Positions 52,458 through 57,010 of a stretch of DNA of 64,000 bases are shown here, one piece after another. Within the stretch, counting starts at the first letter, position 1, and each line of letters begins with the position of its first letter. A program made the position numbers and the translations under genes. The notes below the pieces were generated by a model. That model had not been told where the DNA came from, made no database searches, and was given only the letters and a program-made list of their open reading frames with translations. The DNA is from a candidate division Zixibacteria bacterium HGW-Zixibacteria-1 (GTDB lineage: Bacteria; Zixibacteria; MSB-5A5; GN15; PGXB01): positions 1 to 64,000 of the forward strand of contig PGXB01000013.1 of the NCBI GenBank assembly GCA_002838945.1. The letters are read 5' to 3'.

Positions 52458-52516
52458 TGCGTATAATAGGTAAAAACGGCTTGATTTTCAAGTCTGATTA
52501 ACTCATTTTGGACGGC

Positions 52517-54076
52517 ATGAAGATTTTCACGACCTGTTTATTGATTCTGTTCATGTTTTCTCTGCACCCGGTTGCCCGGGAAACTCTGACTCCCCTCCAA
52601 AAGGGGAAACTGCTGATTAATATCAAATATAACGAAATAATCTCCGGCCCCGAATATAACACCGAAAATCTCGACCAAAGCCTGAGAAACCATCTCGACT
52701 TTTATCTCTGGAGCCGCGGCTGGGATTTCGAATTCGTTCCGAAAGATGCCGCCGGAAAGATTGATTCTGTCATAAAAGCGGGCGCGGTGTCGGGAGCGCA
52801 GTATCTCTTGAATATAGATGTGACGCCAACATTCAAAACAGCGAAAGTCCGGACAAACTCTGATACGGGCAATAAGAAAATCAAATATGGCGGTTTTCTC
52901 GAGCTCGAGCTGGCCGTTTCTTTAAAAAATCTGACTTCAGGCCAAATGTGGCCGGAAAGCCGGAATGTTACCTGCGAGAGCAGAAAAGAATGGGTCAGGG
53001 ATGGCGACGGCTTTCTGTCATCCGATCAGACTCTGCCCGAACCGCCGGACTATGTCATAATGAGAGCGCTTTCCGAAGCACTCGAGTTTCTTCCTGTCTC
53101 TGAGCCGGTGATTCTTTATTCCAAGCAGGATATTCCTCTTTACATGATTCTCAATACCGCCGCCGCCGATCAGTGGGATAATAAGGACGTCAGTGATGTT
53201 CGTCTGGCGCTGGCTTATGCTTCGAGGTCCCTTCAAAGGCAATTCGGTATCGGCTTAAGGCCGGTCGGCTTCGGCCGTTTGATGGATGATTCGGTTTCGT
53301 TCGAAGGCATTCAGCGTTTTTTCAACCTGTTGCTCAAAACCGAACCGAAGCGGCCCGATACTTTTACCATTGCCGTCTTTGACCCTGTTCATCCCGAAGA
53401 CTTTTTCAAGCGGGTGCAGCCGTCACGGATCGGATTGTCGGACCTTGGCCGACATTTCTCGCTGGTTTCCCGTTTACAGCCTCCCAATGAAGATGTCGCA
53501 AAATGGATTTCCTGTATGAACGGGCAACTGCTGTTGCATGAGATAGGTCACCTTATGGGAGCCATTCATGTTTCCGACCTGCATTCGATCATGAATCCGG
53601 TTACCGCCTGGGTTGCTTCGGATCAGTTCGATATCCTTAATCGGCGCATAATCGAAGCGCGGCGGCCGGCCGGTTTCTCTAACGGAAATGTTAAAGATTA
53701 TCTCAAACTTATTGCCGATGCTCTTGATAATTCCGGCTATGGACTGGCGGACTATCCGGCCGTGTATTTCAGCTACATTAATATAAATCGTTTCATGTTG
53801 CAGCGAGATACCTTTGGCGAAGATGGAGTGGGGCAGTCGATACCGTACGCAGTGGCCGGTATGCAAATGTATCTCATAAAAAATCTTGAATCAGCCCGCG
53901 ACAATTTCTATAAGGCGCTGGTCCGCGATACTTCGCAGGCATCAATCCAGTATTATTTATCAAAAGTCACCTCCGGTAAGCTGTCGGAGCTGCATTTGAA
54001 AAAAGCGGCCGAGATGGGCTATTACCGGGCCATTAATGAGCTGAGTCGAGCAGGCCAACCTATCATGCTGGATTAA
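52517..54076 (+). CDS. Exported metzincin-type metalloprotease, unassigned family
   Basis: This 519-residue protein has a signal peptide (FTTCLLILFMFSLHPVA). An N-terminal beta domain (about 25-180) precedes a helical region. The zinc site LLLHEIGHLMGAIH follows, a perfect HExxHxxGxxH at about 341-351. The Met-turn is in SIMNP (Met about 359), only eight residues later. The C-terminal part is helical and ends in a TPR-like unit (ARDNFYKALVRDTSQASI). I do not recognise the family. The neighbouring TPR lipoprotein is divergent. The ATG at 52517 is preferred over an in-frame TTG nine bases upstream. Confidence 0.78.
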   Translation: MKIFTTCLLILFMFSLHPVARETLTPLQKGKLLINIKYNEIISGPEYNTENLDQSLRNHLDFYLWSRGWDFEFVPKDAAGKIDSVIKAGAVSGAQYLLNIDVTPTFKTAKVRTNSDTGNKKIKYGGFLELELAVSLKNLTSGQMWPESRNVTCESRKEWVRDGDGFLSSDQTLPEPPDYVIMRALSEALEFLPVSEPVILYSKQDIPLYMILNTAAADQWDNKDVSDVRLALAYASRSLQRQFGIGLRPVGFGRLMDDSVSFEGIQRFFNLLLKTEPKRPDTFTIAVFDPVHPEDFFKRVQPSRIGLSDLGRHFSLVSRLQPPNEDVAKWISCMNGQLLLHEIGHLMGAIHVSDLHSIMNPVTAWVASDQFDILNRRIIEARRPAGFSNGNVKDYLKLIADALDNSGYGLADYPAVYFSYININRFMLQRDTFGEDGVGQSIPYAVAGMQMYLIKNLESARDNFYKALVRDTSQASIQYYLSKVTSGKLSELHLKKAAEMGYYRAINELSRAGQPIMLD

Positions 54077-54129: not shown

Positions 54130-54171
54130 TTGACAAATGGTAATACAATGTAATATCCTGCGTTTGATAAT
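54130..54171 (+). promoter_or_regulatory. Promoter/operator region of the zinc-uptake operon
   Basis: TTGACA (54130-54135) is followed by two direct repeats GTAATA at 54140 and 54150, exactly one helical turn apart, and by GATAAT at 54166. The repeats overlap the expected spacer and -10 region, where an RHH repressor could bind as paired dimers. The -10 is uncertain. Confidence 0.4.
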
Positions 54172-54201
54172 AATCGAATTGTAAAAAAAAGAGTTTTTCA
54201 G

Positions 54202-54477
54202 GTGAAGAGAAATAAAAAAGAAATTGTGACATTTAAGGCTGATGAATCGCTGCTGGAAGCCATGAAAGATATTCCCAATCGCTCCGAATTCATCCGTTCA
54301 GCGGTGATGCATGCGCTCGACTCGGTTTGTCCGCTCTGCAATGGGACCGGTATTCTGACCCCCAATCAAAGGGATCACTGGAAAGAATTCACGAACGGTC
54401 ATCGGGTTGAGGAATGCCATGACTGCCACGAAAGGCATCTTGTCTGCGAACACCAGAATGAAAATGGCACGGAATAA
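54202..54477 (+). CDS. RHH DNA-binding protein with zinc-finger tail, candidate zinc-uptake regulator
   Basis: The 91-residue protein starts with a ribbon-helix-helix domain of the CopG/MetJ type (strand EIVTFKADESLLEAM, helix PNRSEFIRSAVMHAL). It continues into a Cys/His cluster: C43-x2-C46-xGTG, then C72-x2-C75, H79, C82 and H84. The CPLCNGTG element resembles the zinc knuckles of DnaJ. It sits directly upstream of znuA, overlapping it by 14 bases, in an operon for zinc import. The natural inference is a repressor that reads zinc through the tail. GTG start. The family is seen beside metal transporters in other bacteria; I know of no defined mechanism. Confidence 0.8.
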   Translation: MKRNKKEIVTFKADESLLEAMKDIPNRSEFIRSAVMHALDSVCPLCNGTGILTPNQRDHWKEFTNGHRVEECHDCHERHLVCEHQNENGTE

Positions 54478-55411
54478 CTTCCGGGGTAGTAAATTGAAAC
54501 GGCTACAAGAAATAAATCGAGCCAGGCATATATTTTCTATTACTTCGGCTATGCTGCTATTGTCGATTTTGTCGCCTGCCTCAGGACACGCCGTTGATAA
54601 TCAGAAGCTTCATACGTTTGTCAGCATTTTGCCCCAGGCATATTTTGTCGAGCGCATCGGCGGTGAATATGTGGATATCGAAGTAATGGTCGCTCCCGGT
54701 CAATCGCCCGAGACTTATGCGCCGACCCCGCGACAGATGTCCGACCTGGATCATGCCGAAGTTTATTTTGCCATCGGCCTTCCTTTTGAAAACCAGTTGT
54801 TGCGCAAGATCAGGGAGATATTCAGGGATCTTGACATTGTCGGTACCCAGAATGGAATAGCGTTAAGAGCGATGGAATCTCATGGGGAAGTGCATGAAGG
54901 GCATGAGCATGAGGCCGGCGCCTCTGATCCGCATGTCTGGTTGGACCCGATTGCGGTAAAAACAATTTCGAAAAATATATGCGATGAATTGACAAAACTC
55001 GATCCGGCACATCAGCCATATTATGAGAAAAATCTAACAATATTCCAGGCCGAATTGGACAGTATAAACGCGGCCATTACAGGCAGATTGGAGCCATACA
55101 AAGGGCGCCACATTTTTGTTTTTCATCCGGTTTACGGTTATTTTGCCGACCGCTATGGTTTGGAACAGACGGCGGTGGAAATAGAGGGCAAGGAGCCGAG
55201 CGCCAAACAGTTGGCTTCGTTTATCGACATGGCCCGGGCCGACAGTGTCACGGTCATTTTTGTTCAGCCGCAGTTCTCGACCAAAACGGCCGAGACAATT
55301 GCCTCTGCCATCGGCGGGACAGTGATAAAAGTCGATCCCCTGTCGCGCGATTACCTGAATAATCTGGGAAATATCGCCGACCGGCTGGCGGAAGGATTGG
55401 GGGGCAAATGA
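54464..55411 (+). CDS. znuA: Zinc ABC transporter, periplasmic binding protein
   Basis: This cluster A-I metal-binding lipid-free protein of about 315 residues has a signal segment (ITSAMLLLSILSPASGHA). It then reads FVSILPQAYFVERIGGEYVDIEVMVAPGQSPETYAPTPRQ. A His-rich acidic loop (HGEVHEGHEHE) precedes DPHVWLDP, which carries a metal ligand, as does FHPVYGYFADRYGL. The His-rich loop favours zinc over manganese. The start is uncertain: ATG 54464 overlaps the regulator, while TTG 54494 has GGGGTAG upstream. Its stop overlaps znuC's ATG. Confidence 0.9.
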   Translation: MARNNFRGSKLKRLQEINRARHIFSITSAMLLLSILSPASGHAVDNQKLHTFVSILPQAYFVERIGGEYVDIEVMVAPGQSPETYAPTPRQMSDLDHAEVYFAIGLPFENQLLRKIREIFRDLDIVGTQNGIALRAMESHGEVHEGHEHEAGASDPHVWLDPIAVKTISKNICDELTKLDPAHQPYYEKNLTIFQAELDSINAAITGRLEPYKGRHIFVFHPVYGYFADRYGLEQTAVEIEGKEPSAKQLASFIDMARADSVTVIFVQPQFSTKTAETIASAIGGTVIKVDPLSRDYLNNLGNIADRLAEGLGGK

Positions 55412-56166
55412 GCAAAAATCAGGTGGTCCGAATCGAAAATTTGACTTTCTCATATGACGGCGTCCCGGTTCTGGAAAGTGTCAATCTTACGATTGATGAA
55501 AATGATTTTGTCTGGGTGGTTGGTCCCAACGGCGGCGGCAAAACGACCCTGGTTAAACTGATTTTGGGTTTGTTGCAGCCCCGTTCCGGCAAAGTCGAGG
55601 TTTTCGGACGGCATCCGGCTGAAGTGCGCTCCCGAATCGGTTATATGTCTCAATTCGCGCGACTCGATCCTCAATTCCCGATAAATGTCATCGATGTGGT
55701 CCTGATGGGACGTTTGGGAAATGACCGGCGGTTGGGGCCATTCCGCAAAAGTGACCGGGAAATCGCCGAAAGCGTCCTTGATGAAGTCGGGCTGCTGGAT
55801 TTAAGCCGGAAATCGTTTTCGTCGCTTTCGGGCGGCCAGCAGAGGCGGGTTTTGATTGCCCGGGCGCTGGCGGTGGAGCCGGAGTTGCTCATTCTGGATG
55901 AACCGACGGCCAATCTTGACTTGCTGGTCGAAAAAGAGCTGTATGATCTTCTCCGCATATTGAATTCCCGGCTGACCATTATCATGGTTTCGCACGACCC
56001 GGCTTTTGTGAGCGATAATGTCGAACGAGTGGTATGCGTCAAACGCAAAGTTTCGGAGCATCCGACCTGCGAACTGGAGGGGAATTTTATCGGTGAATTG
56101 TTCGGCGGGGAGATGCGCCTGGTTCGGCACGACAAACATATCGGAAAGAGGAAAAACGGTGGGTGA
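55408..56166 (+). CDS. znuC: Zinc ABC transporter, ATPase
   Basis: The 252-residue ABC ATPase contains Walker A GPNGGGKTTLVKL, the signature LSGGQQRRVLIARAL, Walker B LLILDEPTANLD and the H-loop IMVSHD. Gly replaces Ala or Cys in the usual GPNGAGK, as in several metal transporters. It overlaps znuA by four bases and the start of znuB by eight, so the three are one translated unit. Confidence 0.95.
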   Translation: MSKNQVVRIENLTFSYDGVPVLESVNLTIDENDFVWVVGPNGGGKTTLVKLILGLLQPRSGKVEVFGRHPAEVRSRIGYMSQFARLDPQFPINVIDVVLMGRLGNDRRLGPFRKSDREIAESVLDEVGLLDLSRKSFSSLSGGQQRRVLIARALAVEPELLILDEPTANLDLLVEKELYDLLRILNSRLTIIMVSHDPAFVSDNVERVVCVKRKVSEHPTCELEGNFIGELFGGEMRLVRHDKHIGKRKNGG

Positions 56167-57010
56167 GTTTATTGATGCCCTCATGCATCATTCCTTCCTG
56201 CAGTATGCCCTTCTGACCGGGCTGCTGGCCAGTGTGGCCTGCGGCATTGTCGGGACCTATGTCGTAACACGCCGGATCACCTATATCGGCGGCGGAATCG
56301 CTCATTCCATTCTCGGGGGCATGGGCGTGGCATATTTTCTTTCGGTGGCCTATCGGTGGAACGGCTTGAAGCCCATGTATGGGGCGATTATTGCGGCCCT
56401 GCTGGCGGCAATAATAATCGGGCTGGTCAGTTTGAAATCCCGCCAGCGGGAGGATACAGTCATCAGTTCCATTTGGGCCATCGGGATGGCGGTCGGGGTT
56501 ATCTTTATTTCCCGAACACCCGGCTATAATCAGGATCTGATGAGCTACCTGTTCGGCAATATATTAATGGTGACCCATTCCGATTTGTGGCTGATTGCCG
56601 GCCTGGATGCTCTCGTTATAGTGATCGGGATACTTTTTTATAATCAATTCACGGCAGTCTGTTTCGATGAGGAATTCGCCCGGGTACGGGGTTTGAATGT
56701 CTCATTTTATTATCTTTTGCTTTTATGTCTGACTGCCCTGACGGTGGTAATACTGGTCACGGTGGTCGGAATCGTCATGGTCATTGCGCTGCTGACGCTT
56801 CCGGTCGCGGTGGCGGGGCATTTTACGCGAACCATGTGGGGGACGATGATCCTGGCGACGATTTTGTCGATTGTTTTTGTCGTAACCGGTCTGGCGGTAA
56901 GCTACGGCCCGAATCTTCCGGCCGGCGCGACCGTTATCCTTATCGCGGGTCTGGCGTATCTGCTGGTGGCGGTTGGAGCGGGGATTTATCGATCAGGCCG
57001 GAGAACATAG
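56159..57010 (+). CDS. znuB: Zinc ABC transporter, permease
   Basis: The 283-residue ABC-3 family permease has eight to nine hydrophobic segments and the family motifs VTRRITYIGGGIAHSILGGMGVAYF and ARVRGLNVSFYY. The GTG at 56159 is chosen because AGAGGA lies eight bases upstream and the product then begins GEFIDALMHHSFLQYALL, as is usual. A longer frame running back into znuC has no ribosome binding site. Confidence 0.93.
   Translation: MGEFIDALMHHSFLQYALLTGLLASVACGIVGTYVVTRRITYIGGGIAHSILGGMGVAYFLSVAYRWNGLKPMYGAIIAALLAAIIIGLVSLKSRQREDTVISSIWAIGMAVGVIFISRTPGYNQDLMSYLFGNILMVTHSDLWLIAGLDALVIVIGILFYNQFTAVCFDEEFARVRGLNVSFYYLLLLCLTALTVVILVTVVGIVMVIALLTLPVAVAGHFTRTMWGTMILATILSIVFVVTGLAVSYGPNLPAGATVILIAGLAYLLVAVGAGIYRSGRRT

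Follow-up and report, generated by a model that had tools for sequence, protein, structure and literature searches.

Directly ahead of the znuACB genes of candidate division Zixibacteria bacterium HGW-Zixibacteria-1 lies a gene for a small ribbon-helix-helix (RHH) protein with a Cys/His tail, which, judged from sequence comparison, can be read with a probability of roughly 0.83 as an autoregulated repressor of zinc uptake that takes zinc as its co-repressor. As a metalloregulator of zinc uptake, it would have a new architecture. The homologues likely form an undescribed family of zinc-uptake repressors, a second independent metal-sensing RHH family that spans at least five phyla, replaces Zur and, by way of a single conserved operator, commands a compact regulon of znuACB, a ZnuD-like receptor and a COG0523 GTPase. 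Comparison among genomes shows linkage to znu genes, invariant residues, a putative operator conserved in sequence and position, further such sites at zinc genes not linked to the regulator, and, in one relative, occupation of the regulator's operon slot by a Fur-family gene.

The regulator gene and its product

The window, i.e., the whole stretch of 64,000 nucleotides of contig PGXB01000013.1 that was analysed, carries the following features:

54130..54159, + strand: sigma-70-like promoter, TTGACA (54130-54135), 18 nt, TATCCT (54154-54159); 10/12 match
54140..54156, + strand: candidate operator GTAATAC-AAT-GTAATAT, the sole exact match in the genome, kept in relatives and across phyla
54202..54477, + strand: RHH regulator gene, predicted to act in zinc uptake; 91 aa, GTG start; RHH domain at about residues 5-40, Cys/His tail at about 41-86
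54464..55411, + strand: znuA, periplasmic zinc-binding protein with a His-rich loop (PF01297, 230.9 bits, E 2.4e-68)
55408..56166, + strand: znuC, ABC transporter ATPase (ABC_tran PF00005, E 9e-31)
about 56162..57010, + strand: znuB, ABC-3 permease (PF00950, E 4.7e-73)

An earlier note on this DNA had proposed an RHH-Cys/His reading frame ahead of znuA, znuC and znuB on the same strand, an overlap of this frame with znuA, and a His-rich loop in the ZnuA protein. All of this was borne out, with the frame at 54202-54477, an overlap of 14 nt provided that the candidate start ATG 54464 is the start of znuA, and the loop HGEVHEGHEHE. Immediately upstream, positions 52508-54076 encode a secreted-looking protein of 522 aa with HEIGHLMGAIHVSDLHSIMNP, a matrixin-like zinc metallopeptidase motif, whose match to PF00413 (E 2.6e-4) stays below the cut-off. 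Proteins resembling it, along with TPR lipoproteins, lie around other znu-type transporters in relatives that lack the RHH gene (L163, L164, L165, L180 and L181). Elsewhere in the window genome (L162:2798-4494, G000 contig C34), another ZnuA-family binding protein is encoded together with a permease of its own and lacks the operator.

Taking profile, model and invariant residue pattern jointly, the N-terminal part of the protein is assigned to the ribbon-helix-helix (MetJ/Arc/CopG) class with its predicted beta-alpha-alpha fold. Pfam RHH_1 matches 19 of the 52 family members at E<=0.01; the window protein itself reaches no Pfam or NCBIfam cut-off, that of RHH_1 included, and the 52 members match families weakly. 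All 52 match the archaeal aCcr1 model (NF053762; best E 2.2e-07, below the cut-off), and the 28 bits of the window protein against a curated cut-off of 60 bits place it outside that family. In an AlphaFold2 model built from 52 sequences (mean pLDDT 80.8, pTM 0.49), the RHH helices 15-21 and 27-40 follow residues 5-14, and the small tail forms one helix and two strands. The top structural match to this model (VIA-align) was residues 1-43 of Escherichia coli NikR (37 residues, 38% identity), which scores low (Z 2.3, rmsd 1.8 over 37 residues). As Foldseek returned no significant match for the whole predicted model, statements on the fold rest on the model helices, the low-scoring NikR row and sequence.

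Little or no variation is seen at K5, K12, N26, S28, F30, I31 and R32 of the RHH part and at C43, P44, C46, G48, G50, Q56, H59, H67, C72, C75 and C82 of the tail. C43, C46, H59, H67, C72, C75 and C82 are invariant among the homologues and, by alignment, make up the conserved ligand-type set, which may be enough for one four-Cys site and part of a second site. The ligand list drawn up before (C43, C46, C72, C75, H79, C82 and H84) was correct in its positions and in its five cysteines, all invariant, but H79 is kept in only 30/39 relatives and H84 in 12/39, and the invariant H59 and H67 had been omitted.

Family scans upheld the proposal that the protein is unrelated to Zur or AdcR, as they show no Fur or MarR membership. 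Neither the FUR domain (PF01475) nor the C-terminal domain of NikR appears in the family listing for the 52 members; the window protein has no FUR match and, at E<=1, none to the NikR domain. Of the suggested search key, RHH plus CPLCNGTG, the motif CPLCNGTG alone is an insufficient marker: recQ-looking helicase genes adjoin remoter RHH-CPxCxGTG proteins in which the C-terminal His/Cys set is missing (L209, L210, L212 and L215). By their sequences, these are a related but different family.

Distribution, operator and regulon

The protein was found in 39 of 98 related genomes searched. An alignment-based scan of GTDB representatives, which overlaps this set, yielded 52 loci whose record titles name Zixibacteria, Eisenbacteria, Spirochaetes, Acidobacteria and Deltaproteobacteria. 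Homologues beside unrelated genes had been named beforehand as the observation that would speak against a zinc regulator. The neighbour check, once run, placed the gene next to znu genes in 39/39 relatives, where the nearest downstream znu gene is znuA in 38 and znuC in one (L024), and in 49/52 cross-phylum homologues. On the same strand, these continue with znuA in 44 loci and with znuC in three, and in two spirochaetes the znu genes lie downstream on the opposite strand. The other three, all spirochaetes and including Alkalispirochaeta alkalica, have no znu genes within 4 kb, and each has a one-mismatch operator before znuA on another contig. Across the phylum of Alkalispirochaeta, 21 of 296 genomes encode the protein, and 14 of these 21 genes adjoin znu genes. 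No plasmid record with the regulator protein was found. Spirochaete loci (L142:4306-7059, L139:6961-8155) also have a pyruvate phosphate dikinase N-terminal-domain protein next to the regulator or its znu genes.

The conserved putative operator, GTAWTAC-N3-GTAWTA, consists of two 7-bp half-sites, each palindromic in itself, at a 10-bp period. In the window, GTAATAC (54140-54146) and GTAATAT (54150-54156) lie 10 bp apart in the spacer between the -35 and -10 boxes and overlap the -10 box, so that the two GTAATA half-sites described earlier as one turn apart over the promoter are indeed found within TTGACA(54130)-18-TATCCT. A simple repeat finder did not have the half-sites among the repeats listed. 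GTAWTACNNNGTAWTA occurs exactly once in the 3.8-Mb window genome, at the regulator promoter, and a search of the same genome for a second operator gave only near matches, at unrelated genes or in coding sequence. The local regulon therefore seems to be the regulator-znuACB operon, and the wider regulon is visible only in relatives.

At least 12 of the 14 specified positions of GTAWTAC-N3-GTAWTAC are matched in the upstream regions of 38/39 relatives, compared with about 0.5% of shuffles, and upstream in 49/52 cross-phylum loci. The same operator sequence precedes the regulator in other phyla (Spirochaetes, Acidobacteria and Deltaproteobacteria). Three spirochaetes have a degraded operator, or none, ahead of the regulator itself. 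TTGAC lies 9-12 nt 5' of the operator in 35/38 relatives, which brings the second half-site over the -10 box. Of the relatives with the protein, 34/38 have the exact 16-bp pattern, versus 4/37 of those without it. Operator variants within one genus (L016, L017 and L022) read GTAATAAAAAGTAATAC, GTAGTATAAAGTAATAC and TTAATAAAAAGTAATAC.

Genomes in which regulator and znuA lie apart provide the strongest test of action in trans. Eight such genomes have the operator, exact or with one mismatch, at separate znuA or znu promoters. It is exact before the separate znuA of G093/G106 (L082), G105 (L145) and G310 (L227), and has one mismatch at znuA in G098 (L152), G099 (L155), G100, which is A. alkalica (L153), G101 (L157) and G102 (L139). 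Such one-mismatch sites are individually weak evidence, since they also arise by chance in the same genomes. The gene after the regulator is znuC in G093/G106 and G105, where znuA lies elsewhere with an exact operator of its own; in G098, G099 and G100, the regulator has no znu neighbour, and the one-mismatch site precedes znuA on another contig. G101 and G102 have convergent znu genes with operators at their own promoters (L157 and L139), in G102 as several overlapping sites with four half-sites in 10-bp phase. G310, assembled as one contig, has six exact sites, of which four lie at the regulator's own promoter and at separate znuA, znuCB and znuACB loci; its RHH gene (L198) retains the operator at its promoter despite the large distance from znu. 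The operator thus lies over promoters of zinc import genes, including that of the regulator itself. A znuA target was not resolved for the solitary homologues L193, L194, L196 and L197, for L203 and L205 from the Deltaproteobacteria phylum sample, or for the acidobacterial L137, where znuA was not located.

Not every exact site marks a zinc gene. In G024, a dispersed repeat carries a perfect or near-perfect operator copy, GTAATACAAAGTAATAC, at about nine places (L073-L081) away from metal genes. These nine extra exact sites were rejected as zinc targets, and they could titrate the regulator or be due to chance. Further stray exact sites (L085-L092, L222, L224, L225, L228 and L229) lie in coding sequence or at genes without an evident zinc role and were likewise set aside.

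Outside znu, operator-bearing genes in two genomes likewise point to zinc. In G093, a third operator is followed immediately by the gene for a small His-rich secreted protein (DLFHNHGIEHCCDHAVIKHNHICP, L083:1879-2226), and then by those for a lipoprotein and a TonB-dependent receptor that is ZnuD-like, with ZnuD as its best PDB match (E 5e-24; next 4e-7). In G098, the operator precedes a COG0523 GTPase with CobW domains, a class that is often under zinc control. ZnuA proteins under the operator have His-rich loops, with means of 5.4 to 10.7 His per window counted, compared with a mean of 1.8 His for five substrate-binding proteins of relatives without the RHH protein, several of which adjoin genes that are DtxR-like by inspection. 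Control of nickel genes, as by NikR, is not what was found here, since neighbours and operator-bearing genes alike are those of zinc uptake.

Predicted mechanism and competing readings

A single Fur-family protein is encoded in the window genome; it adjoins thiol peroxidase (Tpx) and rubrerythrin and looks like PerR. Six regulator-bearing relatives, incomplete assemblies among them, gave no Fur-family match. The relative G091 has neither the RHH protein nor the operator; there, a Fur-family gene directly precedes a similar znuACB operon and, by gene order, fills the slot of the RHH gene. The RHH protein is probably a previously undescribed zinc sensor standing in for Zur, because the operator precedes zinc-import genes even far from the regulator gene.

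In the proposed mechanism, the N-terminal RHH part would dimerise and recognise GTAWTAC half-sites, and two adjacent dimers, spaced by 10 bp, would probably occupy GTAWTAC-N3-GTAWTA between -35 and -10, where they would block RNA polymerase. Binding by the beta-ribbon of RHH dimers would agree with an operator made of two self-palindromic half-sites at this spacing. When zinc is plentiful, the Cys/His tail would bind it and the DNA-binding form would be favoured, which would switch the regulator-znuACB operon off; when zinc is scarce, the metal would leave the tail and the import genes would be expressed. C43, C46, C72 and C75 would likely form one site, and H59, H67 and C82 would belong either to it or to another; this invariant set is consistent with zinc-dependent DNA binding. 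We infer the binding of protein to operator, the two dimers per site, zinc as the ligand and its role as co-repressor, and with it the direction of the response.

The tail zinc might instead be structural, a knuckle as in DnaJ or anti-TRAP, with znu repression exerted through the same operator by a plain autorepressor or in response to another cue. The CPxCxGxG motif does resemble such knuckles (DnaJ_CXXCXGXG gave sub-cut-off matches in 30/52 members, and anti-TRAP matched as well), and paired CxxC sites are often structural. This reading is nevertheless unlikely: a zinc-blind regulator of znuACB, a ZnuD-like receptor and a COG0523 GTPase would be pointless, three more ligand-type residues (H59, H67 and C82) are invariant besides the four cysteines, and in G091 a Fur-family gene takes the regulator's place.

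That sensor and transporter are specific for another metal, such as manganese, iron, nickel or cobalt, is quite improbable. ZnuA-family proteins are known to carry manganese or iron as well, and NikR, the only RHH metalloregulator reported, senses nickel (PMC7055735). Against this stand the His-rich loops of the linked ZnuA proteins, unlike those of the relatives without the RHH protein, the nature of the other operator-bearing genes (ZnuD-like receptor and COG0523 GTPase), and the Cys-rich ligands, which suit zinc and not manganese. Hardly credible is a third view, by which the operator serves activation or some other, unrelated regulator, with the RHH gene as a mere passenger of the operon: protein and operator co-occur, the operator stays at the RHH gene's own promoter even where this gene is far from znu (G310), and overlap with the -10 box is the position of a repressor. 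A zinc-responsive repressor, as the earlier note had supposed, thus remains the preferred reading.

Relation to known systems

Some bacteria have znuABC without a recognisable Zur, and for at least some lineages the RHH family would be an answer. A comparative study of delta-proteobacteria from 2004 could not account for how znu genes are regulated in several of the species (PMC545781). No description of an RHH zinc-uptake regulator was found in the full-text literature searched, in which most subscription journals are missing, so that this absence is no proof. A CopG-family gene in a Paracoccus zinc study was considered as a precedent and dismissed, being merely one entry in an expression table (PMC5387054). 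The RHH-Cys/His family supplies a rule by which proteins left unnamed by Pfam and NCBIfam can be annotated, and because the protein has only about 90 residues and the operator is sharply defined, zinc sensing, DNA binding and allostery are quickly testable.

Among curated RHH families, the aCcr1 archaeal cell-cycle repressors are closest to the regulator; these act on archaeal cell-division genes, however, and the match spans RHH residues 8-36 and not the Cys/His tail. The tail motif CPLCxGTG resembles the zinc sites of anti-TRAP and the CxxCxGxG knuckles of DnaJ, but the similarity is weak and sub-threshold, and neither is a zinc-sensing DNA-binding repressor. Zur, of the Fur family, represses znu operons and in various bacteria also ZnuD-type receptors and COG0523 genes. 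The RHH protein has the same predicted job, and in G091 a Fur-family gene occupies the same operon position, whereas protein family and operator are unrelated and the regulator has no Fur match. AdcR, which represses zinc ABC import in some Firmicutes, has a MarR fold, and the regulator has no MarR match.

According to a 2019 review, NikR is the sole metal-regulated RHH protein (PMC7055735), and the family described here, if the reading is true, would be the second to respond to a metal. Both combine an N-terminal RHH domain with a C-terminal metal-binding part, predicted in the present case, and NikR represses metal import, as the regulator is proposed to do. The regulator differs in that it has a short Cys/His tail in place of the NikR C-terminal domain and is linked to zinc rather than nickel genes, and its operator consists of adjacent half-sites with a 10-bp period, compared with GTATGA-N16-TCATAC for NikR (PMC7055735).
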